DNA of 40,524 nt from Reinekea marinisedimentorum (GTDB lineage: Bacteria > Pseudomonadota > Gammaproteobacteria > Pseudomonadales > Natronospirillaceae), in the NCBI RefSeq assembly GCF_004341165.1, contig NZ_SLZR01000025.1:1-40524 (forward strand). The letters run 5' to 3'. Both the position numbers and the translations under genes were made by a program. The notes under the pieces were generated by a model, which worked only from the letters and a program-made list of their open reading frames with translations, had not been told where the DNA came from and ran no database searches. Positions 13,627 to 38,037 of this stretch are shown here, in pieces (position 1 is the stretch's first letter; every line of letters starts with the position of its first letter).

Positions 13627-13627
13627 G

Positions 13628-15156: not shown

Positions 15157-15243
15157 ATAGTCATATAAAATATAAGTGCATTTGGGGTTTAAATTTCGCA
15201 CTGAAAAAAAGCGTAGAGATACACAAGAGTGCAAAAAACAGCC

Positions 15244-15897: not shown

Positions 15898-15906
15898 TGT
15901 GCGCGT

Positions 15907-18371: not shown

Positions 18372-19627
18372 TAATTCCCCGCGGTGCTCAGTTGTGGCGC
18401 TTTTTCAGCAATCTTGATTGCCACGCCGTAAGTCAGTGCCGCAACAATAACGCCGGTCACCGGTGGCATAAAGGGCAGGAAGTAAGCACACAGGCAGGCT
18501 AAAACATACGCTCCCAGGCCGATGAAGTTGAATGCCGGTATTTGTGCGTCAGCCAACAGCGGGTACTGGCCTTTATGGCGTATCCAGAAGTCGGCCATAA
18601 TGACGCCACCGATCGGTGGAATGAAGGTGCCGAGCAGAATCAGGTAAGGGATCAGATAGTTGTACATGCCACCGAGTGCAAGCAGGGTGCCGATGGCAGC
18701 GCCGCAAACTGTTACGATTTTACGTTTATCGGTACGCAGCAGGTTGCAGCCGGCTACGGCAAAGTTGTAAATGGTGTTGTCTTGCGTGGTCCACAAATTA
18801 AGAAACAGCATCAGGATAGCCAGCGTGATAGAGCCCTGTGCGATCATCACATCCACAATATCTGCCTGCTGGTAAATCAGTGTGCCGATTGCACCGGTGA
18901 AAACCATTAAACCATTACCGACAAAGAATGCGGCCATGGTCGCAAACACCGCTATTTTGCCACTGCTGGCAAAGCGACTCCAATTGGTTGCCTGCGTGCC
19001 ACCGCTGACAAAGGTACCAATGACCACGGTAATGGCAGCGGTTAGGCTCATGCTGCTGGTGGGTTGAGTGGCTGTCAGTTCGCTGAAGCCGCCTACATCG
19101 ATCATGCCTTTATACAGGCTGATGATGATAAAAATCATCATGGCCGGTACGGCAAAACGGGAAAGCCAGTCCAAACCCTTGTAGCCAATCATGGCTGTAA
19201 AGCAGAACGCAAAGCCAAAAAAGATGGTCAAAGGAATGGTGAGCGCTTCGCTTAACCCCAGTGTTTTTACCAGTACGATTGCGATGGTGGCAGTGCCCCA
19301 TGCGTACCAGCCAACCTGGGTAAAGCCAAGAATAAAATCAGATAGCTTGCTGCCTTTTTCACCGAAGCAGAAACGCCCCATAAGAATGGAATTTAATCCG
19401 CTTTTATAAGCGATATAGGCAAGTGCGGCTGCATAACTGCCGAGCAGCAGGTTACCGATCACAATCGCAACCAACAGGTTAGGAAAGGTGAACGCCGTAC
19501 CTAGGCTGCCACCGGCAAACATGGTTGCGGTGAAGAAGGTAAAGCCAAGAAGCACCATCGAGGTGGAGAGCACCCCTTTACGGTCTGAAGTGGGCACTTC
19601 GCTGAGTGGATAGTCTGAAGCTTTCAT
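18371..19627 (-). CDS. codB: Cytosine permease (NCS1 family, CodB-like)
   Basis: A 418-residue inner-membrane symporter with about 12 hydrophobic helices, close to E. coli CodB throughout. Examples are RKGVLSTSMVLLGFTFFTATMFAGG, IGNLLLGSYAAALAYI, LGFTQVGWYAWG, DVMIAQG, LNLWTTQDN and PPIGGVIMADF. It imports cytosine with a cation and probably the substrate of the linked deaminase. The frame extends 24 residues upstream, but ATG 19627 is preferred because AAAGGAAA precedes it at about 7 bases. It is the first gene of codB-pucR-codA; its TAA shares a base with the pucR ATG. The upstream region has no RutR box but has a palindrome and GC-rich repeats. Confidence 0.93.
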   Translation of the reverse strand: MKASDYPLSEVPTSDRKGVLSTSMVLLGFTFFTATMFAGGSLGTAFTFPNLLVAIVIGNLLLGSYAAALAYIAYKSGLNSILMGRFCFGEKGSKLSDFILGFTQVGWYAWGTATIAIVLVKTLGLSEALTIPLTIFFGFAFCFTAMIGYKGLDWLSRFAVPAMMIFIIISLYKGMIDVGGFSELTATQPTSSMSLTAAITVVIGTFVSGGTQATNWSRFASSGKIAVFATMAAFFVGNGLMVFTGAIGTLIYQQADIVDVMIAQGSITLAILMLFLNLWTTQDNTIYNFAVAGCNLLRTDKRKIVTVCGAAIGTLLALGGMYNYLIPYLILLGTFIPPIGGVIMADFWIRHKGQYPLLADAQIPAFNFIGLGAYVLACLCAYFLPFMPPVTGVIVAALTYGVAIKIAEKAPQLSTAGN

Positions 19628-19753
19628 AGAACATTTCCTTTCGCAGTAGTGGGTGATCGGCCTGAGCCGCCGGAAACATCGGAGCAACAGCGGTGCCAAA
19701 TAAATTGAACGCCTGTGTCACTGTTCGGGGTGCTGATAATTTGATTGCAATTT

Positions 19754-19770
19754 ATGTGCACTTTGCACAT
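19754..19770. promoter_or_regulatory. Palindrome upstream of codB, candidate PucR-family operator
   Basis: ATGTGCA-CTT-TGCACAT: perfect 7-bp arms and a 3-base spacer, about 127 bases upstream of codB. Another small palindrome, ATTGCAAT, lies 3 bases away (19744-19751). The position and the presence of a regulator gene in the operon make this a plausible operator, but no other copy was found in the window to support it. Confidence 0.45.
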
Positions 19771-19891
19771 TCATTGCGGCGTCGCTGTTGAGCAGAGGGA
19801 AAGAGGCTGGTGAACGTCGGGAAAAATGCGCGGTAACGGTTGGTGGTGTTTTTATTTTGCAAGTTTGTGGTGCATAAAACAGATGTGTGGA

Positions 19892-19966
19892 ATGCGGGCG
19901 GGGACGCCCGCGGTCCAGATGGGGCAATTGATGGTGAGCTTGTGGAACGCGGGCGTCTCGCCCGCA
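19892..19966. repeat. Double-hairpin GC-rich repeat, copy 1
   Basis: Two stem-loops about 45 bases apart. The first has arms GCGGGCG/CGCCCGC around GGGA; the second has the same arms around TCT. The sequence between includes GGTCCAGATGGGGCAATTG. It is almost identical to copy 2, 167 bases away. This is a REP/MITE-like non-coding element; whether it has copies elsewhere in the genome cannot be seen here. Confidence 0.8.
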
Positions 19967-20058
19967 CGGAGTGATGCCTATGTAATGACAGCATCGCGAA
20001 GCATTGTGTGTCAGGGAAATAGTAGCAGAGGGCAGGAAGTAGAATGTAGCGGAGCGGT

Positions 20059-20135
20059 ATGCGGGCGGGGACGCCCGCGGTCCAGATGGGGCAATTGAAG
20101 GCGAGCTTGTGTGGAACGCGGGCGTCTCGCCCGCA
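20059..20135. repeat. Double-hairpin GC-rich repeat, copy 2
   Basis: Same orientation and structure as copy 1. The differences are two substitutions after CAATTG and an extra GT before GGAACGCGGGCG. The close match between tandem copies points to recent duplication or repeated insertion of the same element. Confidence 0.8.
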
Positions 20136-20155
20136 TAGAATTAATCCGGTCCAGG

Positions 20156-20178
20156 AGGATCGGGCCGAGGCCCGACCT
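20156..20178. repeat. GC-rich hairpin after the amidohydrolase gene
   Basis: Arms TCGGGCC and GGCCCGA around GA, extended by AGG/CCT with one bulge. It lies 6 bases beyond the hydrolase stop on the minus strand and may act in 3'-end formation. No T-run follows, and it resembles dispersed REP-type palindromes more than an intrinsic terminator. Confidence 0.5.
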
Positions 20179-20183
20179 GTAGT

Positions 20184-21452
20184 TTAAATAACAGCTTCTT
20201 CTTTCACGGTTTCAGGTGCTTCAGCAACCTCGGCCATGGTCAGCATCGCATTCAATAAAACCGAGCAACCCGCTTCGCATTCTTCCGGAGTGGTACTTTC
20301 AATTTCATTGTGGCTGATGCCATTCAGGCAAGGGGTAAAGATCATGCTGGTTGGCGCAAAATCTGAAACATAGCAGGCATCGTGTCCGGCACCGGCGATG
20401 ATATCCATGTGTGAATAGCCCAGTGCCTGAGTCGCATTGCGCACCGCGCTGATGCAGTTTTCATCGAACGGAATCGGCTCGTAATACCAGAATGGGTCAA
20501 GCTGAATTTCAACACCGTCTTCCGCGGTTAACTGTTCCACATAGGCTTTCAGTTCGCTATCCATTTGGGTTAGTTCATCATCGTTTGGGTGGCGCATATC
20601 GATGCTGATGGAAACCTCACCGGGAATTGTATTGCGGGAGTTGGGGCCAACCTGAACAAAGCCGACGGTGCCGCAACCCGGTGGGTGTGCTTTGGCAATA
20701 GCTTCGATCTTTTGAATCAGTTTCGTGGTCGCCAGCAGGGCATCGTTACGCAGATGCATCGGTGTAGTGCCGGCGTGCGATTCGCGGCCGGTGACAGTTG
20801 CATTAAACCAGCGCTGGCCCTGGCCACCGGTCACTACGCCAATCTGTTTGTTTTCGGCTTCAAGGTAAGGGCCCTGTTCAATATGGGTTTCAAAGAAGGC
20901 ATGGTAGGCACGGTTGCCTGCTGGTTCGCTGCCGGCAAAGCCAATGCGTTCCAGTTCATCACCGAGGCGCACACCATCGACATCGGTGGTATCCAGAATT
21001 TCCTGCAGAGAAAAACGGCCGGAGACCACACCGGAGCCCATCATCGCCGGTGCAAAGCGAGAGCCTTCTTCGTTGGTCCAAACAGAAATTTCGATAGGGT
21101 GTTTTGTTTTAATGCCATGGTCATTCAAGGAGCGCACAACTTCCAGGCCAGAGAGTACGCCAAACACGCCATCGAACTTACCGCCGGAAGGCTGGGTATC
21201 CAAATGGCTGCCGGTGCCTACCGGTGGCAGGCTGTTGTCTGTTCCCGGACGGGTACAAAAAATATTACCCACCTGATCGACTTTCACCGTGCAGCCGGCT
21301 TCTTCGGCCCACTTGATATAAAGCTCACGGCCCTGCTTGTCTAAATCAGTTAATGCCAGCCTGCGACAACCGCCTTTTTCGGTGCCGCCGATCTTGGCCA
21401 TTTCCATCAGGCTATTCCAAAGACGGTCGCTGTTGATATTAAAAGTTTTCAT
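20184..21452 (-). CDS. Zn-dependent N-carbamoyl amidohydrolase, probable beta-ureidopropionase
   Basis: A 422-residue M20-family amidohydrolase of the hydantoin/allantoate/beta-ureidopropionase group. Metal and substrate signatures are present: GSHLDTQPSGGKFDG, WTNEEGSRF, FETHIEQGP, GRESHAGTTPM, and near the C-terminus GISHNEIES. In reductive pyrimidine breakdown it would hydrolyse N-carbamoyl-beta-alanine (or the methyl form from thymine) to beta-alanine, CO2 and NH3. The dihydropyrimidinase gene across the divergent promoter region supports that reading over allantoate or L-amino-acid carbamoyl hydrolysis. ATG 21452 was preferred over a longer frame because AAGGAG lies 8 bases upstream. A RutR box lies 62-77 bases upstream of the start. 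Confidence 0.88.
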   Translation of the reverse strand: MKTFNINSDRLWNSLMEMAKIGGTEKGGCRRLALTDLDKQGRELYIKWAEEAGCTVKVDQVGNIFCTRPGTDNSLPPVGTGSHLDTQPSGGKFDGVFGVLSGLEVVRSLNDHGIKTKHPIEISVWTNEEGSRFAPAMMGSGVVSGRFSLQEILDTTDVDGVRLGDELERIGFAGSEPAGNRAYHAFFETHIEQGPYLEAENKQIGVVTGGQGQRWFNATVTGRESHAGTTPMHLRNDALLATTKLIQKIEAIAKAHPPGCGTVGFVQVGPNSRNTIPGEVSISIDMRHPNDDELTQMDSELKAYVEQLTAEDGVEIQLDPFWYYEPIPFDENCISAVRNATQALGYSHMDIIAGAGHDACYVSDFAPTSMIFTPCLNGISHNEIESTTPEECEAGCSVLLNAMLTMAEVAEAPETVKEEAVI

Positions 21453-21513
21453 TCTGGTGGCTCCTTGATTAGTCCTGAGCGCATAGCGCTGGTGGGAAAT
21501 TATTAGCAATCCT

Positions 21514-21529
21514 CTGACCAATTGGACAA
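21514..21529. promoter_or_regulatory. RutR-type operator 2, amidohydrolase promoter
   Basis: CTGACCA-AT-TGGACAA fits the RutR pattern TTGACCA-N2-TGGTCAA except for the outer C and one T-to-A change. It sits at the same distance from its gene as operator 1 from preT, and is an inverted copy of operator 3. Confidence 0.75.
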
Positions 21530-21790
21530 AAGGTTAAATTTTTTTTGTTAAGTGTTTGTTTATAAAAGAAAACAATTAGCAAAAGGGAATGCTTCTCAGG
21601 CCGTAAGTTGGCACAGGAGAAAAATAAATTCGAAGGCTGTGCACCAGAATGTAAAAAGTTCGCTCTATGTTGGTTCAGAAGTGAACACTTTGTCAGACAA
21701 GCGACAAATTGTCGGCCCAAAAAGAAAACCAAGTTAAATCAATTTTTTAGCGTTGCTTATAAAGCAGGAGCAGAAATATTTTTACACCTT

Positions 21791-21806
21791 TTGTCCAATT
21801 GGTCAG
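21791..21806. promoter_or_regulatory. RutR-type operator 3, dihydropyrimidinase promoter
   Basis: TTGTCCA-AT-TGGTCAG is the exact reverse complement of operator 2 and fits the RutR consensus with the same deviations. It lies 85-100 bases upstream of the dihydropyrimidinase start and would control that gene and the ABC importer behind it. Confidence 0.75.
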
Positions 21807-21818
21807 CGGATTGCATAG

Positions 21819-23330
<1,512 letters not shown>

Positions 23331-23369
23331 ACGCCGCCCCGCTAATCAGGATTACTAAGAGAGCCGACT

Positions 23370-24212
23370 ATGTACGCTGTTGAAAACTCTACAGTGGCGG
23401 AAGAGAGCGTGTCGCCACAAAGCCCGTCATCAAACAAGCGTGTGATGATTGATGTTAAAGATCTTTCGCTGGTGTTTCAGACCAACGATGGCCCGGTAAA
23501 TGCACTTTCAGATATTAATCTGAAAATTGGTGAAGGTGATTTCGTTTCGTTTATCGGGCCTTCCGGCTGCGGTAAAACAACCTTGCTGCGTGTGATCGCC
23601 GATCTGGAAAAGCAAACCGCCGGTTCAATCAGCGTGAACGGCACAACGCCGGAAGACGCGCGTTTAAACCGTCTTTATGGCTACGTTTTTCAGGCGGCAG
23701 CCTTGCTGCCGTGGCGAACCATTAAAAAGAACTGTGCAGTCCCGTTGGAAATTTCCGGTCACTCGCAAGCGCACCAGAATAAGCAGATTGATAAGTATTT
23801 AAGAATGGTTGGCCTGCAGGATTTTCACGAAAAGTATCCATGGCAGCTTTCCGGTGGTATGCAGCAGCGCGCTTCGATTGCACGCGCCCTATGCATTGAG
23901 CCAGACCTTCTGTTGATGGACGAACCCTTCGGCGCGTTGGATGAAATTACCCGTGACCACATGAACGTTGAGCTGCTGAAAATTTGGGATGAAACTAAAA
24001 AGACAGTGGTCTTTGTAACGCATTCCATCTCTGAAGCGGTGATGCTTTCAACCCATATCGTGGTCATGTCGCCACGGCCGGGTCGAATCACCAAGGTCAT
24101 TGAAAGCCCACTACCGCGCATGAAAGACCTGGCGCTGCGAGATACCGAAGCCTTCCATGCGTTGGCAGCAGAAATACGTGCAGCACTGGCAGAAGAACAT
24201 GCCATTGATTGA
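23370..24212 (+). CDS. ABC importer ATPase (NitT/TauT type)
   Basis: A 280-residue ATPase with Walker A GPSGCGKT (residues 63-70), a Q-loop in YVFQAAALLPW, signature LSGGMQQR (from about 160), Walker B LLLMDEPFGALD and the switch His in VFVTHS. It belongs to the SsuB/TauB/NrtD/ThiZ group. The first 25 residues are Ser/Glu-rich and not part of the fold. Its stop overlaps the longest frame of the permease that follows, and the linked permeases and NMT1-type binding protein complete the importer. The position behind dihydropyrimidinase suggests uptake of a pyrimidine, dihydropyrimidine or hydantoin (inference). Confidence 0.92.
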   Translation: MYAVENSTVAEESVSPQSPSSNKRVMIDVKDLSLVFQTNDGPVNALSDINLKIGEGDFVSFIGPSGCGKTTLLRVIADLEKQTAGSISVNGTTPEDARLNRLYGYVFQAAALLPWRTIKKNCAVPLEISGHSQAHQNKQIDKYLRMVGLQDFHEKYPWQLSGGMQQRASIARALCIEPDLLLMDEPFGALDEITRDHMNVELLKIWDETKKTVVFVTHSISEAVMLSTHIVVMSPRPGRITKVIESPLPRMKDLALRDTEAFHALAAEIRAALAEEHAID

Positions 24213-24232
24213 GCCCAGAGCAGGGAGCAAGC

Positions 24233-25114
24233 GTGAAAGAATCTATTTTTGATAAGAAGTGGTTTGCCATTGTTGTTTTTATCATCGCGATTACTGCACT
24301 GTGGTATGCAGCCGCCTTGTGGATGAACGGCAACCAGCTGGTTAAAACCTACGAACGTAAGAACCAGGAATGGACTTACAGCACCATTATTGCCGAGGCC
24401 TATCAGGTTAAACGGCCCATGTTGCCGCCGCCACATCAGGTGTTTGCGCAGTGGTATAAAACAGTTTTTGATACCAAGGTAACCTCTAAGCGTTCTCTGG
24501 TGTATCACACCATGGTGACGTTGCAATCCACCATGCTCGGTTTTGTATTAGGTACGGTACTGGGCGTTGCGATCGCCATCGGTATTGTTCACAACCGCAC
24601 CATGGAAATGAGCTTTATGCCGTGGGTGATTGCGTCGCAGACCATTCCGATTCTGGCCATCGCACCGATTATTGTCGTGGTGTTAGGGGCCATCAACCTC
24701 ACTGGTGTGGTTCCGAAGGCGATCATCTCGATGTACCTGTCGTTCTTCCCGGTCACCATCGGTATGGTTAAGGGCTTGCGTTCGTCCGACAGAATGCACC
24801 TGGAATTAATGCAAACCTATAACGCCTCTAATTCTCAAACCTTTTGGATGTTGCGCTGGTATTCGGCTCAACCCTTCCTGTTTGCCAGCCTCAAGGTTGC
24901 TATTGCAGCGGCGCTGGTCGGCGCGATTGTGGCCGAGCTGCCAACCGGTGCGCAGGGTGGCTTGGGTTCACGCTTACTGAGTGGCTCTTATTACGGGCAG
25001 ACGGTACAGATTTGGGCCGCGTTATTTATGGCTGCCTTATTGGGCCTGTCTCTGGTCACTGTGGTCAGTCTGTTTGAAAAAATTCTGTTACGCCGTCGAG
25101 GAGTCAGCGTATGA
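24233..25114 (+). CDS. ABC importer permease 1 (NitT/TauT type)
   Basis: A 293-residue inner-membrane protein with about six to seven helices and the permease coupling segment (EAA-like, LELMQTYNASNSQTFWMLRWYSAQPFLFASLKVAIAAALVGAIVAE). An unusually long loop of about 60 residues follows the first helix. GTG 24233 was chosen because AGGGAG precedes it; the frame continues upstream only to a TTG within the ATPase gene. Its last four bases overlap the next permease ATG (ATGA), so the two are coupled and likely form a heterodimeric channel. Confidence 0.88.
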   Translation: MKESIFDKKWFAIVVFIIAITALWYAAALWMNGNQLVKTYERKNQEWTYSTIIAEAYQVKRPMLPPPHQVFAQWYKTVFDTKVTSKRSLVYHTMVTLQSTMLGFVLGTVLGVAIAIGIVHNRTMEMSFMPWVIASQTIPILAIAPIIVVVLGAINLTGVVPKAIISMYLSFFPVTIGMVKGLRSSDRMHLELMQTYNASNSQTFWMLRWYSAQPFLFASLKVAIAAALVGAIVAELPTGAQGGLGSRLLSGSYYGQTVQIWAALFMAALLGLSLVTVVSLFEKILLRRRGVSV

Positions 25115-26067
25115 ACCAGACGCCTAAATTACTGATTTATGCAGCCGTACTGTTCGCTCAGGTAGCATTGGCTTTTTTTACCGAGCCGGGTTTCTACGAG
25201 CGCGCGCCGCTGTTGCTGTTCCTTCTGCTGGCTTCGTTCTTTGCCGCTGCTGGTATGATGTCTGCCTGCACTGCGCTGGTCGATGCGAATCATCCGTTTA
25301 AAAAGTCGCTTAAGATTGCAGTACCCTCTGTTTTTGCACTGGTCGTTGTCGTCAGCTGGCAAGCACTGACCCAGGGTTACGATGTGCCGCAGGTGTTACT
25401 GCCGGCACCGAGTGAAATCATCGTCGCCTTCTTCAGTAACCTGCCAACACTGTGGGCCGACTTCCGTCAAACCTTTTTAAAGGCGGTGATCGCCGGGTAT
25501 CTGATGGGCTGTATCTCTGGCTTTATTGTTGCGCAGTGGGCGGTTAAAAGTCGCTTCCTGCAGAACGGTTTGTTGCCACTGGGTAACTTTGTTTCTGCCA
25601 TTCCTATTGTCGGTATCGCACCCATTATGGTGATGTGGTTCGGCTTCGACTGGCCATCTAAAGCCGCCGTTGTTGTGGTGATGACATTCTTCCCCATGTT
25701 TATTAATACGCTTGCCGGTTTGCAATCGGTTGATGCGCTGCACAAAGATTTAATGCATACCTATGCGGCAAAGAAATCTCAGACGTTTACTAAAAGTCAG
25801 CTGCCACAGGCAATGCCATTCATTTTTAACGCCCTAAAACTTAACTCTACTCTGGCCCTTATTGGCGCCATCGTGGCGGAGTTTTTCGGCACACCCATCG
25901 TTGGTATGGGTTTTCGAATTTCGACCGAGGTCGGTCGAATGAATATGGAAATGGTTTGGGCGACGATTCTGGTCGCGGCCCTGGCCGGCTCCATGAGTTA
26001 CGGTGCTTTAGCTCTTTTAGAGCGAGCGGTTTTATTCTGGCATCCGTCTGTAAGAAGCGGCAGATAA
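25111..26067 (+). CDS. ABC importer permease 2 (NitT/TauT type)
   Basis: A 318-residue permease with three helices before the usual domain and an EAA-like loop (DLMHTYAAKKSQTFTKSQLPQAMPFIFNALKLNSTLALIGAIVAEFFG). It has the same fold as permease 1 but low similarity, so the importer probably uses a pair of unlike subunits. The ATGA overlap with permease 1 and 43 bases to the binding-protein gene fit one operon. Confidence 0.88.
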   Translation: MNQTPKLLIYAAVLFAQVALAFFTEPGFYERAPLLLFLLLASFFAAAGMMSACTALVDANHPFKKSLKIAVPSVFALVVVVSWQALTQGYDVPQVLLPAPSEIIVAFFSNLPTLWADFRQTFLKAVIAGYLMGCISGFIVAQWAVKSRFLQNGLLPLGNFVSAIPIVGIAPIMVMWFGFDWPSKAAVVVVMTFFPMFINTLAGLQSVDALHKDLMHTYAAKKSQTFTKSQLPQAMPFIFNALKLNSTLALIGAIVAEFFGTPIVGMGFRISTEVGRMNMEMVWATILVAALAGSMSYGALALLERAVLFWHPSVRSGR

Positions 26068-26110
26068 ACCCAAAGTGCCTTTTGTTAGGCGAATCTACGA
26101 GGAAATCTAA

Positions 26111-27112
26111 ATGAAGAAATACGTTGCTTCTCTAGCAGTTGGCGCAGCTCTTTTTGCGTCCAGCTTAACTGCACAAGCGGCTGATGAACTGACACTGCAG
26201 TTGAAATGGGTAACCCAGGCGCAGTTTGCCGGTTACTACGCTGCGCTTGAACAGGGCTTTTATGAAGACGAAGGTTTGGATGTCACCATCAAACCGGGTG
26301 GCCCGGATATCGCGCCCGCTCAGATATTAGCCGGTGGCGGCGCAGACATCATTGTCGACTGGATGCCTTCAGCACTGGCAACGCGTGAAAAGGGTTTGCC
26401 TCTGGTGAATATTGGTCAGATCTACGATAAATCCGGCATGATGCTGACTTGTCTGAAATCAAGCGGTATTTCTACACCGGCTGATTTTGGCGGCAAAACA
26501 CTGGGTGTTTGGTTCTTTGGTAATGAATATCCCTTCCTGAGCTGGATGTCTAAACTTGGTTACGAAACCACGGGCGGCAGCGGTGTTACGGTTCTTAAGC
26601 AGGGCTTTAACGTCGACCCAATCTTCCAGGGGCAGGCTGATTGTGTTTCCACCATGACGTACAACGAATACGGCCAGGTTCTGGATGGCGGTTTAACGCC
26701 GGAAGAACTGCAACTGTTCAAATATGAAGACGAAGGTGTAGCTACGCTGGAAGACGGTCTGTACGTTATGGAAGAAGATTTGGCCGACAGCAAAATGGTT
26801 GAAAACTACGCCAAGTTCCTGAAAGCAACGATCAAAGGCTGGGAATGGGCGAAAGAAAACCCAGTAGATGCGGCCATGATCATTCTGGATTACGATGACA
26901 CCGGCGCACAAACCGAAGAGCATCAAATTCGTATGATGACTGAAGTAGCCAAACTGTTGAGCTCTGAAGGCAAAGGCATTGGCTACCTCGACCCTGCTGA
27001 TTATCAGCGTACTGTTGATGTCTTGCTGAGCAGCGAATCTGCGCCGGTTATTACCAAGCAGCCTGAGGGTGCTTACAGCCACGTTGTCTTTGAAAAGGCG
27101 ATGTCACTCTAA
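26111..27112 (+). CDS. NMT1/THI5-like periplasmic binding protein of the pyrimidine-linked importer
   Basis: A 333-residue exported protein with signal peptide MKKYVASLAVGAALFASSLTAQA, then the NMT1/THI5 opening pattern LKWVTQAQFAGYYAALEQGFYEDEGLDVTIKPGGPDIAPAQ. That family binds pyrimidine precursors of thiamine (ThiY), riboflavin or related heterocycles. Here, between dihydropyrimidinase and a terminator, the ligand is more likely uracil, thymine, a dihydropyrimidine or hydantoin (inference). GAGGAAA precedes the ATG. A strong terminator follows 23 bases after the stop, closing the operon. Confidence 0.92.
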   Translation: MKKYVASLAVGAALFASSLTAQAADELTLQLKWVTQAQFAGYYAALEQGFYEDEGLDVTIKPGGPDIAPAQILAGGGADIIVDWMPSALATREKGLPLVNIGQIYDKSGMMLTCLKSSGISTPADFGGKTLGVWFFGNEYPFLSWMSKLGYETTGGSGVTVLKQGFNVDPIFQGQADCVSTMTYNEYGQVLDGGLTPEELQLFKYEDEGVATLEDGLYVMEEDLADSKMVENYAKFLKATIKGWEWAKENPVDAAMIILDYDDTGAQTEEHQIRMMTEVAKLLSSEGKGIGYLDPADYQRTVDVLLSSESAPVITKQPEGAYSHVVFEKAMSL

Positions 27113-28684: not shown

Positions 28685-29443
28685 TTAACTGTAGTAAAGA
28701 CAAAGCGGCTGGCCATTGATGGTTTGAACATGCAATGGCATGTCGTACAACGCCTGCAGTATGTTGTCCTGCATGATTTCTTCCGGTGAACCAATCTCGA
28801 AAACCCTTCCGTTGTGCATCGCTATAATTGAGTCGCTGTAACTGGCGGCAAAGTTAATATCGTGCAGCACCACAATAATGCTCTTATTCAGGCTGTCGCA
28901 GGCCAGACGCAACTGCTTCATGATCGATTGGCTGTGCTTCATATCCAGGTTGTTCAGCGGTTCATCAAAGCACACGTATTTTGTATCCTGCGCCAGCACC
29001 ATGGCTATAAAGGCGCGTTGCCTTTGACCCCCGGAAAGCTGATCCAAAAAGCGGTGTTGGAATTCATTCAGCCCTAAAAATTCAATCGCAGTGGCAATCT
29101 TTTGTGCGTCTTCTTTTGTCGGTCTGCCTTTGTGGTAGGGGAATCGACCGAAGGTGACCAGATCTTCCACCGTCAATCGTGCTGTTAGGTGGTTATCCTG
29201 ACGCAGAATGGACAGCGTGCGCGCCAATTTGTTTTTTTCGTAAGACTGAATCGGCTTGTCATCGATCAGAATCTCTCCGGCGCTGGTTGGAACCGTTTGG
29301 GTGAGTGCTGAAAGCAGGGTCGATTTGCCAGCACCGTTCGGCCCAATCACCGAGGTTAATCCGGTTTCAGGAATGCTGAAACTGATGTCCTTTAAAATAG
29401 GTGTGGAGCGAATATCAACAGAAACGTTATTAAATTGAATCAT
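28685..29443 (-). CDS. Ferric siderophore ABC importer ATPase (VctC/YclP/FepC-like)
   Basis: A 252-residue ATPase with Walker A GPNGAGKS (34-41), Q-loop ILRQDNHLTARLTVEDLVTFGRFPY, signature LSGGQRQRAFIAMVL, Walker B YVCFDEPLNNLD and switch His in VVLHDINFA. It powers FecCD-type siderophore import through the inner membrane. It is the last gene of the SIP-binding protein-permease-permease-ATPase operon; its ATG overlaps the permease stop by four bases. Order and sequence flavour resemble the catechol-siderophore systems VctPDGC and YclNOPQ. Confidence 0.93.
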   Translation of the reverse strand: MIQFNNVSVDIRSTPILKDISFSIPETGLTSVIGPNGAGKSTLLSALTQTVPTSAGEILIDDKPIQSYEKNKLARTLSILRQDNHLTARLTVEDLVTFGRFPYHKGRPTKEDAQKIATAIEFLGLNEFQHRFLDQLSGGQRQRAFIAMVLAQDTKYVCFDEPLNNLDMKHSQSIMKQLRLACDSLNKSIIVVLHDINFAASYSDSIIAMHNGRVFEIGSPEEIMQDNILQALYDMPLHVQTINGQPLCLYYS

Positions 29444-30438
29444 GCTTTACCCTGTCGAATAATGAGGACTAAAAAGAAAACACCGCCAATAAACTCGATG
29501 ATGATGCTCAACCGGGTTTGAAAGCTGAGCAGGTGTTGAAGCACAAACTCGCCGGAAACCAGCGTTAATATGCCAAGCACCGTTGCAAACGGAATCATAA
29601 TGCCGTGCTTGTAGCTGCCACACAGGCGGTAAGTGAGGTGGGCGACCAGCAGGCCGAAAAATGAAACAGGCCCAACCAATGCGGTTGAAAGCGCGATCAG
29701 CACAACGGTAACAAAAAGTGTTTGGAGTGTACGTCTGGAAAAATCGACACCTAGATTCAGGGCAGACTGCCTTCCCAGCAACATAACATCCAGCTCTGCA
29801 TGTATGCGAAACAAAAATAGCGCTGTTGCCGTAAACACAAAACCGGATATCAGCAGCAGGGCAGGGTCAACGGAACCGAAAGACGCGAACATTGAATCTT
29901 GCAGTACCGAGAATTGAGTTGGGTCGAGCATGCGGCTGAACAGATAAGAAAGGCTGGTGAAGAGCACACCAAAAATAATACCGACCAGAATCAGGTAGTG
30001 CAGCGATTGCGAGGTTCCGCGGAACAGCATCCACGCCAGCAGCAATACACAGCCGAGCATCACGGCCGTTTCCAGAGCCCACTTCAAATAGGGGCTCATC
30101 GATGAAAAACCAACAGAGCCCAGCGAAAATATCAGGATGGTCTGAATTAAAATATACATCGAATCAAACCCCATAATGCCGGGCGTTAAGATTCGGTTAC
30201 CACAAATAGTCTGGAATAACAGTGTGGCGATGCTGATAGAAGCCCCAACGATTACCAGGCTGAGCAATTTCATGCCCCGGTACTCCAGGGTAAATGCCCA
30301 GCTGGCTTTTACGTTCCAGGTTAAAAACAGGGTGACAGATACCAGCAGAAACGCGCACAAAATGGCCAGCCGAATGCCGGTGCTGGAAAAGCTCAATCGG
30401 GGTTTTGTGGCTGTAAAGGGTAAAGCGCTACTATGCAT
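29440..30438 (-). CDS. Ferric siderophore ABC importer permease 2 (FecCD family)
   Basis: 332 residues with about nine to ten helices and family motifs: GMKLLSLVIVGASISIATLLFQTICGNRILTPGIMGFDSMY and ALVGPVSFFGLLVAHLTYRLCGSYKHGIMIPFATVLG, the latter being the ATPase-coupling region (GPVSFFGLLVPHxxR in relatives). Its start overlaps permease 1 by eight bases and its stop overlaps the ATPase start by four, so translation is coupled. Pairs with the other permease as the channel. Confidence 0.92.
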   Translation of the reverse strand: MHSSALPFTATKPRLSFSSTGIRLAILCAFLLVSVTLFLTWNVKASWAFTLEYRGMKLLSLVIVGASISIATLLFQTICGNRILTPGIMGFDSMYILIQTILIFSLGSVGFSSMSPYLKWALETAVMLGCVLLLAWMLFRGTSQSLHYLILVGIIFGVLFTSLSYLFSRMLDPTQFSVLQDSMFASFGSVDPALLLISGFVFTATALFLFRIHAELDVMLLGRQSALNLGVDFSRRTLQTLFVTVVLIALSTALVGPVSFFGLLVAHLTYRLCGSYKHGIMIPFATVLGILTLVSGEFVLQHLLSFQTRLSIIIEFIGGVFFLVLIIRQGKA

Positions 30439-31381
30439 GTTGGTTTTGCTTATGAATAAGAATCAGAAAAATAATACTGCCGATAACACCCATGACCGTG
30501 GCGACAGGTATTTCGTAAGGGAAGGCCAGCACCCGGGCCAGAATATCGCAGGTCAAAACCAACCCGGTGCCAATCACTGCCACCCAGGGCAGGGTTCGCC
30601 GGTAATTGTCACCAAACAGCAGGCTGACAATATTTGGAACAACCAGACCAACAAACGGAATGATGCCCGAAATAACCACGGTAATGCCGGAGATCATGGC
30701 AACAATGGAAACACCCCAGAACAGCGTGAAGCGATAGTTCAGCCCCAGGTTCAGCGCCGTGTGCTTCCCCATGCTGGCCAGCGTAAACTGGTCTGCCGTA
30801 AAGTAAGCCAGGCCGCACAGCGCCGCGCTGATCCATAATAATTCGTAGCGGCCTTTTAGAATCATGGAAAAATCGCCCTGAATCCATGTCCAGACCGATT
30901 GCATCAGATCAAACCGGTAGGCAATAAAGGCCAGCACCGAGCTGATAACACCGGCATACATAATGCCGGCCAGCGGAATAATCAGGCTGCTCTGCAGTTG
31001 AATACGGCTGAGAATAAACAGAAAGCTGCTGGCGCCGATAAGTGAAAACAAACTGGCGACAATCAGCTTGGTTGTCATAGATGCCTGCGGCCAAAACAGC
31101 AGCAGCAGTAAAATACCCAGCGCCGCCCACTCAACTGTACCGGTGGTGGTGGGCTCGACAAATTTATTGCGGGCCAGCGATTGCATAACAACACCGGCGA
31201 CCGAAAGCGACAGGCCGGTGAGTATAACGGCCAGCGTTCTTGGCAGCCTGGTAAGAAAAACCAGCGACCAGAATTCGTCAAACGAATTGATATCTGCTAC
31301 GCCAATAAACAGGCTGACCACGGCCAGGCCGGTCACAGCGGCGATAGCCAGCATTAGCGTTACAGGTGTCGTTAGCCTCAT
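30431..31381 (-). CDS. Ferric siderophore ABC importer permease 1 (FecCD family)
   Basis: 316 residues, multiple helices, with FecCD signatures LPRTLAVILTGLSLSVAGVVMQSLARNKFVEPTTTG and VVISGIIPFVGLVVPNIVSLLFGDNYRRTLPW. The PTTTG variant in place of the P-x-x-L-G of BtuC/FhuB is as in the YclN/CeuB/VctD branch. It lies 20 bases after the binding-protein gene and overlaps the second permease by eight bases. Confidence 0.92.
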   Translation of the reverse strand: MRLTTPVTLMLAIAAVTGLAVVSLFIGVADINSFDEFWSLVFLTRLPRTLAVILTGLSLSVAGVVMQSLARNKFVEPTTTGTVEWAALGILLLLLFWPQASMTTKLIVASLFSLIGASSFLFILSRIQLQSSLIIPLAGIMYAGVISSVLAFIAYRFDLMQSVWTWIQGDFSMILKGRYELLWISAALCGLAYFTADQFTLASMGKHTALNLGLNYRFTLFWGVSIVAMISGITVVISGIIPFVGLVVPNIVSLLFGDNYRRTLPWVAVIGTGLVLTCDILARVLAFPYEIPVATVMGVIGSIIFLILIHKQNQHA

Positions 31382-31401
31382 GAGATTTGTCGTATCCTGG
31401 T

Positions 31402-32307
31402 TTATTGATCAATGCCGAGTGCGGTTTCGATCTCATCGAGCATGTTGTTCATCGCGGTCAGACCATAAGCCACCATGTACCATGAATAGCCGTTCAGGAA
31501 GGTGATGTCGTCATTTTTATAGGCCGTCAGCTGATGAACCAATTCGTTATCCAGCAGGGCTTTAGCGGCTTGTGAATCTTGCCCAATGGCGGCATCTCTG
31601 TCCATTACAAAGATCATGTCCGGGTTGACCTTCTGCAGAAACTCAAAGGAGATTGGGTCGCCATGTGTTTCTGTTTCAACATCTTTAACCGTTGGTTCAA
31701 TACCGAGTTCATCATGAATCCAGCCAAAACGGGAGCCTGGGCCAAATGCCGAAATCTTGCCGCCGGAAGTTAAAATAAACAGGGCATTCTTGTTGTTCTG
31801 TGGTGCGGTTTTAATCTGTTCTACGCGTGCTTTAATGGCTGCCAGTTCAGCTTCGGCCTGTGCCGATTTATCAACGCTATCGGCCAGCATTTCGGTAACA
31901 CTGTAGAATTGATCCAGGAACGGCTCGTTCCAAACGGTGGCATCGACAGTAGGCGCAATCTTACTCATCGCTTTGTATTGTTTTTGGCTGCGGCCGCCAA
32001 TGACAATTAGATCGGGTTGCAATGCAGCAATGGTTTCAAAATCCGGTTCCCAGAATGACCCGACAGAGGTGTACTGATCACCGGTGAACTTTTCCAGATA
32101 ATCGTAAGCGTGTGGTTTAGGCAGGCCGGTAATTTCTACCCCCAGGGTGTTTAACGTATCTACTGCAGCTAAATCCAGAGCGATAATTTTTTCAGGCACC
32201 GCGTCTATTTCGGTAGTGCCTTGTGCATGAGTCACTGTTTTTGCCTGTGCCAGAGGAAGCAGGGCAGCGAACGTCACTGCCAGGCCGGCGGTTTTAAGCT
32301 TAATCAT
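31402..32307 (-). CDS. Periplasmic siderophore-binding protein (VctP/YclQ/CeuE-like)
   Basis: A 301-residue exported binding protein with signal peptide MIKLKTAGLAVTFAALLPLAQA. Class III features follow: VPEKIIALDLAAVDTLNTLGVEITGLPK, FETIAALQPDLIVIGGRSQKQYKAMSKIAPTV, a long connecting helix, then SFEFLQKVNPDMIFVMDRDAAIG. The strand-helix IGGRSQKQ and the DLAAVDTL box are shared with CeuE/YclQ, which bind catechol and tetradentate ferric siderophores. No lipobox Cys, so it should be soluble. Iron-repressed through the Fur box upstream of the operon's first gene (inference). Confidence 0.92.
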   Translation of the reverse strand: MIKLKTAGLAVTFAALLPLAQAKTVTHAQGTTEIDAVPEKIIALDLAAVDTLNTLGVEITGLPKPHAYDYLEKFTGDQYTSVGSFWEPDFETIAALQPDLIVIGGRSQKQYKAMSKIAPTVDATVWNEPFLDQFYSVTEMLADSVDKSAQAEAELAAIKARVEQIKTAPQNNKNALFILTSGGKISAFGPGSRFGWIHDELGIEPTVKDVETETHGDPISFEFLQKVNPDMIFVMDRDAAIGQDSQAAKALLDNELVHQLTAYKNDDITFLNGYSWYMVAYGLTAMNNMLDEIETALGIDQ

Positions 32308-32370
32308 GGTGTCTCCGAATTTGTCTGGTTAAATATGGGGTGTCGGTTTAAGGGGTTATCAGTTTAAGGG

Positions 32371-33183
32371 TTACAGTTCGTTATCCATGGTGTCGTGACG
32401 CATCTGGTGGTAACCCTCTTCGGTAAATTCTTTACGCCAGTAGGGCACGGCGTAGATGAATTCTTTAGGAATTTTCTTTTGCGAAAGGTGCTTGCGTAAA
32501 TCGACGACGGTCTGGTGTTCGCCAGCAAGCGTAAAGCTCCAGTCTGAACTTTCGTCGGGTATAGCAAGCTGTTCCAGCAATGGTGTCAGCGTTTCTGCAG
32601 GGCTAAAGCGTTGCGGAACAAAGGTGACGCTTGCAGACGTTTCAGAAAAATAAGTCCGTTGAATCTCTTCAATTTCTGTCAGTTCTTCCAGCTCAATAAA
32701 AATGTGAACCGTTGCCGAAGTAGGTATGTGTGCAAGTACCGCAGAAAGCGCCGGTACGGCGGAAGCATCACCGACAAGCAGATGATTTTTTACGTCAGGA
32801 ATGATTAATTGTTTTAAACCCGGGCCGCTGAAACCTATTTCATCACCCACGGCGCAGTGGGTTGCGAAATCGCAGGCGATGCCAGCAGGGGTGTGCTTAA
32901 CGAAATCTACCGTCAGTTCTTTCCGGGTGGCATCGAAACCTGCAATGGAATAGGTGCGGGCAACAGGCTTTTTATCGGGTGCTGGCCACTTCAGTTTTCC
33001 ATGGGTGTATTCGGGCAATTCAAGCTTGGCTTGTGTCTTGGTTTTAAAAAGCAGCTTGATGTGTAAACCGCCGTAATTGGCGGGGATTCTTTCTTCTGTC
33101 AGCCCCGGGCCGGTTAAAACCAGCCGGTGCATCGAGGTGCCAATAGGGTAGGTTGCTGAAACATTCAGTTTGAGTGGTTGCAT
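32371..33183 (-). CDS. Siderophore-interacting protein (SIP/ViuB-family flavin reductase)
   Basis: A 270-residue cytosolic ferric-siderophore reductase. The flavin-binding domain has RTYSIAGFD (the R-x-Y-S/T box) and HTPAGIACDFATHCAVGDEIGFSGPG. The NAD(P)H domain has LLVGDASAVPALSAVLAHIP, and the C-terminus has YWRKEFTEEGYHQ as in SIP proteins. It releases iron after import by reduction or by hydride-linked chemistry. It is the first gene of the importer operon, 57 bases downstream of a Fur box and divergent from the receptor gene. A 63-base spacer follows before the binding protein. Confidence 0.93.
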   Translation of the reverse strand: MQPLKLNVSATYPIGTSMHRLVLTGPGLTEERIPANYGGLHIKLLFKTKTQAKLELPEYTHGKLKWPAPDKKPVARTYSIAGFDATRKELTVDFVKHTPAGIACDFATHCAVGDEIGFSGPGLKQLIIPDVKNHLLVGDASAVPALSAVLAHIPTSATVHIFIELEELTEIEEIQRTYFSETSASVTFVPQRFSPAETLTPLLEQLAIPDESSDWSFTLAGEHQTVVDLRKHLSQKKIPKEFIYAVPYWRKEFTEEGYHQMRHDTMDNEL

Positions 33184-33410: not shown

Positions 33411-35498
33411 ATGCCCTTAACTCAATTTAAACGCAAGGCGCTTGTTGTTGCGCTGGTTAGCCAGGCCGGTTTAACAGCAACAAATGTTGCCGTTGCAAAC
33501 GACTCAACCGAAATAGAAACAGACACCATTGTCATTTCAGGTGAAAAGATTGAACGTAGCCTGAAAGAGGCGACCACTGCGGTTACCGTGATTACGGAAG
33601 ACCAGTTACAAACCACTGAAACGCAAACCATCAACGAAATTGCTGCCAGCACACCCAATGTCATTAACGGCGGTTTTGGTGCGGTTAGTATTCGCGGTGT
33701 AGACGGTACCGGCGCAGCGACCGGTGGTTACGCTTTTTACAGCGGCGCGCGTGCCCGTGTTTCCACCATAGTGGACGGGGTAAGCCAGTCCTGGTCGGGC
33801 TATAACTTCACGCCTTCAAAATCGTGGGATGTTAAACAGGTCGAGGTATACCGTGGCCCGCAATCAACCACGCAGGGTACTAACTCTATCGGTGGTGCCA
33901 TGGTTGTTGAATCGAACGACCCTACCTATTACCAGGAGGCGGCCATTCGCCTGGGTACCGAGGTTTATGAAAACGGCAACACGCTGTCTAACCTTGCAGT
34001 TATGGCATCCGGCCCGTTGATTGAAGATGAATTGGCGTTCCGCCTGGCTGTTGATGGCAGCACCGGTGAAAGCTACATCACTTACGAGCAGGCAGCCACC
34101 GAGCTGGACGATTCACCCGATTTAGATAACACCACCAACCTGAATTTGCGTTCCAAACTGCTCTGGGAGCCTGGTTTTCTTCCTGAGTTAAGCGCCAAAG
34201 CCACCGTTAATTACAGCAGCTTTGACGGCAGTTACCTGAACTGGGCGAACGATACAGACGAGGACTATTCCACCCAAACCTTTACCGTAAGCAGTGCGGA
34301 TCGGGATTACACCCGTATTCAGGATTCCACAGTGAAATCGGTTGCCGGTGATGCGGATTATCAGCTGACAGATCAGATATCTAACAGCTTCCAGATTGTT
34401 TATGCCGAGACTGATGTTGAATTTAACGAATACACATCTTCGCGTACGGTGATTTCGGATGTCGATAATGTAACCGTTGAGAATCGCCTTAACTTCCGCG
34501 CAAGCGATGACAGCGCAACCGCGTTTGTTGGTGTGTATCTTTCTAACACCGAAACCACGCAGGATATCTTTAGCGTTATCGATGTTGAAAGTGATGTCAC
34601 CACAGCTGCCGTGTTTGGTGAAGCCTCGTATCAGCTGCTTGACGAATTAAGCCTGATTGCCGGTTTGCGCTATGAAAATGAATCGACCGACAGAATGCTG
34701 GATCACGCCAGTAACACCAATTACAACTTCGATGAAAGTGTCTCTGAAGATGTTCTGCTGCCGAAAATTGCCGCCATTTATGAGCTGACCGACAACACAG
34801 TTGTCAGCGCCTCGGTGCGTAAAGGCTATAACGCCGGCGGTGGTGCCGTTAACTGGGCATCGGATACCGATAACATCGGCTACTACACCTACGATTCTGA
34901 AACCGTTTGGGCCTATGAAGCTGCGTTGAAAACCAGCATTGCCGGCGCTAACGTGGCTGTCAGCGCCTTCATTAACGACTACGCAGATTATCAGGCCTTT
35001 GTTTCTGAATACGACAGCAGCCTGGACGATACCCTTCAGTACATTGAAAACGTTGAAGATGCTCTGACCTACGGTGTAGAGCTGGAAGGCGATAAATGGC
35101 TGACCGATTCCACATCACTGCGTGCATCCGTTGGTTATACACAAACTGAAGTCATCAGCGATGATGACACTATTGACGGTAACGAGCTGCCAAACGCACC
35201 TGCATTCAATACCAGTGTGGGTGTCACTCAGTACTTCAGCGACCGCTTCTCGGTAGGTGCCGATGTGGTTTACGTGGGCGAATACTATTCAGATTTGGAT
35301 AACACCAGTGACTACAAAGCCGGAGATTATGTGACTGCTGATATCCGCGCTAACTATGTTATTGGCGATTTCACCCTGGATGCCTACGTTAAAAACCTGA
35401 CCAACGAAGACATCGTGTACTGGGATAATGGCGCAATCGAGCGTGTTTCTGTTGGCCAAACCCGCACCATCGGTTTTAACGCCACGTTCAGAATGTAA
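33411..35498 (+). CDS. TonB-dependent siderophore receptor
   Basis: A 695-residue outer-membrane receptor. The signal peptide ends about Ala29, the TonB box DTIVISG lies at residues 38-44, and the plug domain has the usual ITEDQLQTT, SIRGVDGTG, STIVDGVSQS and VKQVEVYRGPQSTTQGTNSIGGAM. A long beta-barrel ends FNATFRM, with an aromatic residue before the last strand's end. Acidic external loops rich in Asp/Ser are common in marine receptors. Neighbours indicate a catechol or related ferric siderophore as ligand; no synthesis genes are present. A Fur box precedes it and a terminator follows at 35540. Confidence 0.94.
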   Translation: MPLTQFKRKALVVALVSQAGLTATNVAVANDSTEIETDTIVISGEKIERSLKEATTAVTVITEDQLQTTETQTINEIAASTPNVINGGFGAVSIRGVDGTGAATGGYAFYSGARARVSTIVDGVSQSWSGYNFTPSKSWDVKQVEVYRGPQSTTQGTNSIGGAMVVESNDPTYYQEAAIRLGTEVYENGNTLSNLAVMASGPLIEDELAFRLAVDGSTGESYITYEQAATELDDSPDLDNTTNLNLRSKLLWEPGFLPELSAKATVNYSSFDGSYLNWANDTDEDYSTQTFTVSSADRDYTRIQDSTVKSVAGDADYQLTDQISNSFQIVYAETDVEFNEYTSSRTVISDVDNVTVENRLNFRASDDSATAFVGVYLSNTETTQDIFSVIDVESDVTTAAVFGEASYQLLDELSLIAGLRYENESTDRMLDHASNTNYNFDESVSEDVLLPKIAAIYELTDNTVVSASVRKGYNAGGGAVNWASDTDNIGYYTYDSETVWAYEAALKTSIAGANVAVSAFINDYADYQAFVSEYDSSLDDTLQYIENVEDALTYGVELEGDKWLTDSTSLRASVGYTQTEVISDDDTIDGNELPNAPAFNTSVGVTQYFSDRFSVGADVVYVGEYYSDLDNTSDYKAGDYVTADIRANYVIGDFTLDAYVKNLTNEDIVYWDNGAIERVSVGQTRTIGFNATFRM

Positions 35499-35695: not shown

Positions 35696-36349
35696 ATGCA
35701 GACTCTCATTGAATACGGCCCGATTGTATGGATTCTTTTATCTATGTCGGTGCTGGCACTGACCATCTTTTTTATCAAGGTTTGGCAACTGCTGTACAGC
35801 GGCGCAAACCGCACGGCCGATGTTGAAACCTGTTTGCAGCACTGGCAAAAAGGTGACGTTGCCAAAGCCATCGCGGCGTTAAAAACCTCGCGCCCGGTAT
35901 CGCATGTTGTGCAGGTGGCGGTGCAGGGTGTAGAACAGAAAAATTTACCGGAAGATCGCTTAACACAAGAGCTTAACCGCATAGCGCAGCTGAAAATGCT
36001 TTCGTTGCGCAGCCTGTTACGGCCATTGGAAGTGATAGCAACCTTAGCGCCGCTGCTGGGTTTGTTAGGCACGGTACTGGGTATGATAACCGCCTTTCAG
36101 CAAATGGAAATCGCCGGTGCCAATGTTGACCCATCGGTATTATCCGGTGGTATCTGGCAAGCGCTGCTGACGACGGCAATGGGGCTCTCTGTCGCCATAC
36201 CTGTGGTTGCCATGCACACCTGGCTGGAGCGCCGGGTCGATTCTGTCGCAAGTAAAATGGACGATGCCGTGACCCGCGTCTTTACCCAGCTGCCGGAAGC
36301 GCTGAAATCTAACGTCACGGCTTTGGGTGCCAACCAGCGTGTTGCTTAA
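35696..36349 (+). CDS. exbB: ExbB-family proton channel subunit
   Basis: A 217-residue MotA/TolQ/ExbB protein with a first helix (YGPIVWILLSMSVLALTIFFIKVW), then a cytosolic loop, and two further helices containing LRPLEVIATLAPLLGLLGTVLGMITAFQQMEIAG and LSGGIWQALLTTAMGLSVAIPVVAMHTWLERRV. Family motifs and length fit ExbB of the short TonB2/TtpC-associated kind. It forms the pentameric channel for ExbD and drives TonB. Its last 23 bases overlap the next gene, so exbB and exbD are translationally coupled. Confidence 0.94.
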   Translation: MQTLIEYGPIVWILLSMSVLALTIFFIKVWQLLYSGANRTADVETCLQHWQKGDVAKAIAALKTSRPVSHVVQVAVQGVEQKNLPEDRLTQELNRIAQLKMLSLRSLLRPLEVIATLAPLLGLLGTVLGMITAFQQMEIAGANVDPSVLSGGIWQALLTTAMGLSVAIPVVAMHTWLERRVDSVASKMDDAVTRVFTQLPEALKSNVTALGANQRVA

Positions 36350-36731
36350 TTTACCTGCTAAGCCAAGCAGAAAGGCCATTAGCCTGACGCCCTTGATCGA
36401 TGTGGTGTTTATTCTGTTGCTGTTTTTTATGCTGTCTTCCAGTTTTGTGACCTACCGGCAGCTGCCCGTACCCTTGCCGGATGCCAGCCCGAATGCCGGG
36501 CCGGTGTTGTTGAGTGTGCAGGTAGAAACGGGTGGCTCGGCCATTACAGTTGCCGGAAAGACCGTATCTATAGAGCAGGGTGCAGCCTTGCAGAGCCTGG
36601 TTGCAGTGCAGCCCGATGCGGTGTATCTGGTTTCGGTGACGGATGCTGTGACCACCCAACAACTTGTAAAAGTGATGGATGCCTTAACCCACGCCGGTGC
36701 CGAGCACGTTTCCCTGCAGGGGCTTGAATGA
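36327..36731 (+). CDS. exbD: ExbD-family proton channel subunit 1, with the conserved Asp
   Basis: A 134-residue protein with a short cytosolic tail, one helix and a periplasmic domain. The helix reads LTPLIDVVFILLLFFMLSSSF, with Asp25 at the essential proton-carrying position. The start is one of GTG 36327, GTG 36339 or TTG 36342; all lie within exbB, and 36327 is the longest. Its stop overlaps the next ATG by four bases (ATGA). It acts with ExbB and TonB at the inner membrane. Confidence 0.92.
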   Translation: MPTSVLLNLPAKPSRKAISLTPLIDVVFILLLFFMLSSSFVTYRQLPVPLPDASPNAGPVLLSVQVETGGSAITVAGKTVSIEQGAALQSLVAVQPDAVYLVSVTDAVTTQQLVKVMDALTHAGAEHVSLQGLE

Positions 36732-37152
36732 TGCTGAATGTTTCCGCCAATAAACCGAAACCCCTGGGCGACGATGACAACATGATCCCGCTCATCAACA
36801 TCGTTTTCTTAATGCTCATCTTCTTTATGGTGGCCGGGCATATAGAAAAAACCGACAACATTGATGTAGAGCTGCCACTCTCTGTCAGTAACGATGAAAT
36901 ATCAGAACAGGTTATAAAACTGTATATCGATAACACCGGCCAAATGCAGCTGGATGCTCAACCCATAGCCCAAGCGGTATTAACTGAAACGTTGGCAACG
37001 ACGCTGGAATCGAGCCCGCAACCTGCGTCTGTGCACTTGCTGCTGCAGGTAGACGCCGATTTTTCAGCGGTTGAACTGCAACATATTTTATCGGACGTTA
37101 AAGCCAGCGGCATTCGCCGGGTCAGCCTGGCGACTCTACTGAAAAATATCTG

Positions 37153-37153
<1 letters not shown>
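36728..37153 (+). CDS. ExbD-family subunit 2, with Asn replacing the conserved Asp
   Basis: A 141-residue ExbD paralogue: cytosolic tail rich in Asp (LGDDDN), one helix [21 protein letters not shown] and a periplasmic domain ending [12 protein letters not shown]. The residue equivalent to E. coli ExbD Asp25 is Asn24 (codon AAC at 36797-36799), while exbD 1 keeps Asp. In E. coli, replacing Asp25 abolishes function. This subunit may pair with the first ExbD as an asymmetric dimer in the ExbB pore. It overlaps both neighbours (ATGA before, one base into tonB after). Confidence 0.9.

Positions 37154-38037
<884 letters not shown>

Follow-up and report, generated by a model that had tools for sequence, protein, structure and literature searches.

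A layout with two ExbD genes, exbD1 and exbD2, is known from the Ton systems of Xanthomonas and Stenotrophomonas, and the products of both genes carry Asp in these bacteria. In the E. coli motor, five ExbB subunits surround two ExbD helices and one TonB is bound at the edge (PMC12215075). Asp25 of ExbD sits by Thr148 and Thr181 of ExbB (PMC6778125). In the proposed rotary model the two Asps are protonated in turn, each giving a step of 36 degrees (PMC9022066), and ExbD(D25N) is reported to be inactive in E. coli (PMC11658791). The flagellar stator MotA5MotB2, another 5:2 motor of this family, depends on an Asp carried by its inner dimer, and Asp22Asn in MotB has been used in the laboratory to imitate the protonated state (PMC9022066). 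The nearest precedent for a motor combining an Asp and an Asn ExbD is the Myxococcus AglR-AglQ-AglS system, in which one MotA/ExbB-like protein is accompanied by two different ExbD/TolR-like proteins, and mutants of each are defective (PMC9389320, PMC3858216, PMC3169522). The replacement D28N in AglQ stopped its motor (PMC3858216). AglS is said to keep its Asp, and PMC9389320 calls the formation of an AglQ/AglS heterodimer unknown. No description of a natural Asn at the ExbD Asp site was found in the ExbD, MotB and Agl motor literature, as far as the sources cited here and others of their kind extend, most subscription journals lying outside the scope of the search.

The stretch of DNA analysed here (the window) comprises 40,524 nucleotides of contig NZ_SLZR01000025.1 of Reinekea marinisedimentorum. 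It carries the gene order exbB-exbD1-exbD2-tonB downstream of a gene for a TonB-dependent receptor on the same strand (Table 1), and the Ton-system families PF01618, PF03544, PF00593 and PF07715 are all present together, each of the four proteins ExbB, ExbD1, ExbD2 and TonB scoring above its Pfam cut-off. ExbD1 and ExbD2 overlap by 4 bases and ExbD2 and TonB by 1 base. The stretch of ExbD1 around Asp25 reads PLIDVVFILLLFFM; the number 25 depends on the GTG start chosen by the ORF tool. Thr126 and Thr160 of ExbB align with Thr148 and Thr181 of E. coli, and a Trp is present at position 154. The receptor scored 154.7 bits against the NCBIfam model TonB-siderophor, below the cut-off of 223.5, and is likely a client of the Ton motor. 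Within TonB, the long Pro-Glu run of the linker (37400-37575) appeared by eye to be coded by near-perfect short repeats. Elsewhere in the window, a cluster resembling those for pyrimidine or hydantoin breakdown was recognized by eye at 12331-27112, with a dihydropyrimidine dehydrogenase-like pair, a dihydropyrimidinase, a deaminase, a permease and an ABC importer.

Table 1. Features of the Ton locus and its surroundings in the window
Feature	Position	Strand	Basis
Iron-siderophore import genes: ATPase, two permeases, binding protein, siderophore-interacting-protein-like gene	28685..33183	-	ORFs, by eye
TonB-dependent outer-membrane receptor, siderophore type	33411..35498	+	Pfam Plug and TonB_dep_Rec_b-barrel
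ExbB, two-ExbD type	35696..36349	+	PF01618
ExbD1, Asp-type (Asp25)	36327..36731	+	PF02472, 73.5 bits
Codon GAT, Asp25 of ExbD1	36399..36401	+	Sequence
ExbD2, Asn-type (Asn24)	36728..37153	+	PF02472, 79.2 bits
Codon AAC, Asn24 of ExbD2	36797..36799	+	Sequence; alignment to 6TYI chain Y
TonB, Pro-Glu-rich periplasmic linker	37153..38037	+	PF03544 TonB_C; linker by eye

The locus shares with the E. coli 5:2:1 TonB-ExbB-ExbD system, as published, the protein families, the Asp (in ExbD1) and the two channel threonines of ExbB. It differs in that E. coli has one ExbD in two copies, each with Asp25, whereas here two different ExbDs are encoded, of which one has the Asp. The AglRQS type, with two different subunits that both have the conserved aspartate according to the description in PMC9389320, is therefore not what was found. 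MotA5MotB2, as presented in PMC9022066, has a single kind of MotB, and its protonated-state mimic was a mutant, while ExbD2 seems to be permanently in such a state.

The first-pass annotation had placed Asp25 of ExbD1 and Asn24 of ExbD2 at the site of E. coli Asp25. This was confirmed by the sequence and by alignment to 6TYI, in which Asn24 pairs with Asp25 of chain Y. ExbD2 thus lacks the transmembrane Asp typical of ExbD and TolR, which ExbD1 has. Both proteins passed the Pfam PF02472 cut-off of 25.4 bits. Neither reached the NCBIfam cut-offs for the ExbD equivalogs TIGR02803 (ExbD2 32.1 and ExbD1 40.4 bits, cut-off 152.95) and TIGR02804 (22.3 and 19.8 bits, cut-off 123.45) or for the TolR equivalog TIGR02801 (46.0 and 45.3 bits, cut-off 127.3). 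The structure model of ExbD2 was confident in the periplasmic half, where the predicted ExbD fold is kept, and gave TM scores of 0.83-0.86 by target length against 8vgd, 8vgc and 8p9r. The top structural matches of the model were ExbD bound to TonB D-box peptides. Judged by sequence and predicted fold, ExbD2 is a relative of ExbD/TolR minus the key Asp, and the family match and the modelled fold agree with the earlier statement that the rest of the protein is intact.

Relatives of the operon were gathered from Alpha- and Gammaproteobacteria in surveys that were mostly anchored on ExbB, so that the residue in ExbD2 would not pick the matches; part of the two-ExbD operons were found with ExbD2 itself as the query. 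The order-wide ExbB search covered 293 genomes. Divergent Asp/Asp operons may be under-sampled by it, because its ExbB profile was built solely from Asp/Asn operons. A scan of named genomes with the ExbB alignment contributed 80 loci, taken from among 574 relatives listed, and a phylum-wide ExbD2 search of 398 genomes contributed 30 loci and 19 further regions read among its matches. The plasmid search yielded 14 Leisingera records and one from Vibrio, and no relatives were found in the viral contigs searched. After removal of duplicates at least 191 distinct operons remained, of which 156 have two ExbDs, 34 a single ExbD and one no ExbD in reach. Two of the 34, L125 and L135, stop at the contig edge directly after ExbD1.

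Co-conservation of the Asn-type ExbD with an Asp-type partner, the test set beforehand, was present: 150 of the at least 156 distinct two-ExbD operons were Asp/Asn. The remaining six comprised one broken ExbD1 with an Asn-type ExbD2, four Asp/Asp and one Asp/Ser, which gives Asn 151, Asp 4 and Ser 1 at the ExbD2 site. Every Asn-type ExbD2 adjoined an ExbD1, and all 34 single ExbDs had Asp. When the set was thinned by ExbB identity, with exceptions retained first, the Asp/Asn share was 61 of 67 (below 60% identity) and 27 of 33 (below 50%). In the 22 genomes of the family to which the window belongs, the tandem pair was present in at least four other genomes, each time with Asp first and Asn second, and the Asp/Asn tandem pair also occurs on a Leisingera plasmid, at a locus for siderophore genes. 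Among the 293 genomes of the order, two ExbDs followed each of the 58 ExbBs scoring above 140.5 bits, with Asp/Asn in 57 of these loci. The eight lower-scoring loci of the order that were read (L098-L105) each had a single ExbD with Asp. In the remaining high-scoring locus, L074 (1628-2800), ExbD1 is apparently interrupted by a transposase-like ORF, while ExbB, an Asn-type ExbD2 and TonB remain. The only two-ExbD operon with Ser at the ExbD2 site was found at L150 (7046-7516), in an alphaproteobacterial MAG from Baikal.

The Asn was invariant in all 38 rows of the ExbD2 alignment A5, in which the other 37 rows are 21-40% identical to the ExbD2 of the window; the Asp was equally invariant in the 38 rows for ExbD1. 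Across 145 two-ExbD operons the Asn column of ExbD2 was 96.6% conserved, against 32% for the median column. Both Asn codons occur (AAC 81, AAT 58), each one transition away from Asp. A residue about 97% conserved in a fast-evolving protein, with both codons in use, is held by selection and not merely inherited, and the Asp/Asn pair is, as far as comparison of sequences goes, a widespread class and not a local oddity. Free variation at the site, which would have spoken against a role for the Asn, was rejected, as only Asn, Asp and Ser occur in the 156 operons.

A tree of ExbDs calculated with the Asp/Asn column removed fell mostly into two groups, holding 29 of 32 ExbD2 rows and 30 of 32 ExbD1 rows, with no strongly supported branch. 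The Asn-type ExbD2s of L032, L087 and L088 and the ExbD1s of L158 and L165 were placed outside their own groups, and the Asp-type ExbD2s (L037, L154, L158, L205) and the Ser-type (L150) fell in the ExbD2 group. These weakly supported trees suggest that ExbD1 and ExbD2 are two separate paralogue groups. Constraining all ExbD2s (p-AU 0.73) or all Asn-type ExbD2s (p-AU 0.61) to one clade was not rejected, so that on a weakly resolved tree a single origin is permitted but unproven. On an ExbB tree of 116 rows the ExbD2 residue required at least five changes, gains and losses not being distinguished. Both channel threonines of ExbB were kept in all 145 two-ExbD ExbBs. Position 154 of ExbB was Trp or Tyr in all 156 two-ExbD operons and in 7 of 34 single-ExbD operons, where it was mostly Ser. 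The aromatic residue is a better marker of the two-ExbD clade of ExbB sequences than the Glu that follows it. It has no explanatory value for the Asn, because Asp/Asp operons carry it too. Loss of the Glu after Trp154 as a partner change was considered and rejected; 139 Asp/Asn operons had Glu 56, Gln 52, Val 23, Leu 4, Lys 3 and Gly 1 at this position.

With a profile made from five TonB sequences, TonB was found downstream of 103 of 139 Asp/Asn operons; of the rest, 23 loci break off too early and 13 showed no TonB with this profile. The next gene appeared unlike TonB by eye in L155, L160 and L180. In L160 (7444-8583) and L180 (7472-8638) the Asp/Asn operon is followed by a long membrane-anchored protein unlike TonB, as judged by eye, which is perhaps another output of the same motor. 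A further arrangement was seen at L037 (2816-5958) on a Leisingera plasmid, where an ExbB-ExbD-ExbD-DUF4384 operon neighbours genes for type VI secretion. Both of its ExbDs have Asp, and the five-sequence profile detected no TonB. The operon suggests a relative of the two-ExbD motor that serves a different output.

A second unequal module was found in the genome of R. marinisedimentorum, on contig C10 (L236, 4753-6440). This ExbB-ExbD-ExbD module is only distantly related to the Ton operon and has the reverse order, the first ExbD carrying Asn and the second Asp. By eye, the genes that follow it encode a small exported protein, a long protein whose end is TonB-like, a protein of outer-membrane type and one rich in repeats, a layout that recalls the AglRQS-Glt core complex as described in PMC3169522. 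Loci of this type were collected from the order (30 of the 43 matches listed, from 39 of 244 genomes) and from the phylum (11 loci, from 10 of 299 genomes). Among these 41 loci, 39 distinct pairs were counted, 37 Asn/Asp and two Asp/Asp; the module profiles A9 and A10 were made from 17 loci chosen for Asn/Asp, and their own invariance was not used in this count, which covers all 41. In profile comparisons ExbD2 was nearest to ExbD1 (E 1.1e-23) and second nearest to the Asp subunit of the C10 module (E 1.4e-11), and it matched the Asn subunit of that module only at E 0.0017 with a probability of 15%. The Asn subunit of the C10 module was closer to ExbD1 (E 1.9e-8) than to ExbD2. Neither Asn subunit therefore has the other as its closest relative, which makes two separate origins of the unequal pair probable.

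The explanation preferred here, with a probability of roughly 0.55, is that the shaft of this Ton motor is an ExbD1:ExbD2 heterodimer within the ExbB pentamer and that only ExbD1 carries protons. ExbD1 and ExbD2 would pair up as the central shaft inside five ExbBs, with the proton-accepting Asp supplied by ExbD1 alone. The Asn of ExbD2, unable to be charged, would resemble a permanently protonated Asp, and the motor would have one proton-carrying site instead of two. ExbD2 would contribute a neutral face and a periplasmic dimer partner, and possibly a contact to TonB. If the motor is rotary, as proposed for ExbBD, one proton would be used per 72 degrees, or 5 per turn, compared with 36 degrees each and 10 protons per turn for two alternating Asps. 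Alternatively, a motor with one site might not be a two-stroke rotor at all. The heterodimer, the stoichiometry, the one-site coupling and the step size are what we infer. In favour of this explanation are the conserved Asp/Asn pair, the intact ExbD2 whose predicted periplasmic domain resembles D-box-bound ExbD, the channel threonines retained in ExbB, the close gene spacing, the more basic segment ahead of the helix in ExbD1, the two tentative paralogue groups and the second unequal module. Since the D25N form of E. coli ExbD has no activity (PMC11658791), an Asn-type ExbD is unlikely to function by itself. The first-pass annotation had held that overlapping genes ensure equal supply of the two ExbDs. 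Counting from the candidate ExbD2 start nearest the ExbD1 stop, the genes overlapped or were separated by at most 10 bases in 128 of 138 Asp/Asn operons, 61 of them with a 4-base overlap. Such spacing suggests translational coupling; equal supply is not proven by it. A mixed ExbB5-D1-D2 motor with a single proton site, proposed at that stage, is plausible; for the altered coupling direction suggested along with it, the analysis offers no support.

Several observations count against a heterodimeric shaft. Asn is not strictly required, because four Asp/Asp operons, two of them with TonB downstream (L158 and L205), and one Asp/Ser operon exist. The single-ExbD operons L117, L118, L120 and L132 share a similar ExbB, and three of these four have TonB downstream. 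In the unconstrained ExbD tree, three Asn-type ExbD2 rows and two ExbD1 rows strayed from their groups. The charge of the segment before the helix counts on both sides: ExbD1 is usually the more positive, but the two ExbDs are only partly opposite. Over eight residues the means were +2.3 for ExbD1, -0.7 for ExbD2 and -1.7 for 25 single ExbDs; ExbD1 exceeded ExbD2 in 138 of 143 pairs, and a positive ExbD1 met a negative ExbD2 in only 76. Over twelve residues the means were +3.3, +0.4 and +0.9, with ExbD1 more positive in 129 of 143 pairs and opposite signs in 49. In the eight-residue stretch single ExbDs are as acidic as ExbD2 or more so. A one-site motor is also in conflict with the rotary model, whose published form requires the two Asps to act alternately (PMC9022066). 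In Myxococcus, D28N in AglQ halted the motor (PMC3858216) even though AglS is described as keeping Asp (PMC9389320).

ExbD1 homodimers could, moreover, do the work themselves. The main rival to the heterodimer is built on this: ExbD1 homodimers would be the working motors and ExbD2 a brake or regulator, forming inactive homo- or heterodimers that tune Ton activity, for example when no receptor is loaded. ExbD2 would then be a natural analogue of the inactive D25N subunit described in PMC11658791. Asp-only shafts can evidently work with such ExbBs, given the Asp/Asp and single-Asp relatives, and the gene spacing predicts co-expression of ExbD2 with exbD1. The same spacing argues in the other direction, since exbD2 adjoins exbD1 with little or no gap (128/138) and a constant brake made with each motor would presumably be costly. 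Furthermore, ExbD1 without ExbD2 beside such ExbBs was seen only at the contig ends of L125 and L135 and in L117, L118, L120 and L132. Restraint of ExbD1 homodimers by ExbD2 is considered unlikely, though it deserves to be taken seriously.

A different role for the Asn would be as part of an ion site, in which the Asp/Asn pair and the ExbB threonines coordinate an ion, perhaps Na+, in place of two independent proton sites. The occurrence of Asn and one Ser, apart from the four Asp, points to a need for a side chain that is both polar and neutral, and not to a mere loss of charge. Many carriers in the named-genome scan (80 of 574 relatives listed) come from genera that we take to be marine or haloalkaline. 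The four Asp/Asp operons do not fit such a site, and this explanation is regarded as improbable. Deamidation of Asn24 to Asp after translation, which would leave both subunits with Asp in the cell, is very improbable. In the 38 rows the Asn is followed by Ile, Val or Leu, which disfavours spontaneous deamidation, and both Asn codons have been kept although an Asp codon is one base away. Decay, a relic or a sequencing artefact in this genome, the first of which had been thought unlikely from the outset, was rejected on the deep conservation of the Asn (151 of 156 distinct two-ExbD operons) and the intact predicted fold.

It is possible, though somewhat doubtful, that the proposed heterodimeric Ton motor represents a class of asymmetric 5:2 motors with a single proton site and a neutral Asn shaft subunit. 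Such motors would have arisen at least twice, in the Ton-type and the Agl/Glt-like C10 modules, and been kept for a long time. They would spend about half as many protons on each turn, without need for alternation of two Asps, perhaps as an adaptation to weak marine proton gradients. Tandem genes of the Asp/Asn type should not be annotated simply as two ExbDs. If the preferred explanation is true, a natural motor with one Asp would set a hard limit on the two-Asp rotary model of ExbBD. Its two shaft positions could be distinguished and changed singly without further engineering, and the step size and the proton cost per turn would become directly testable.
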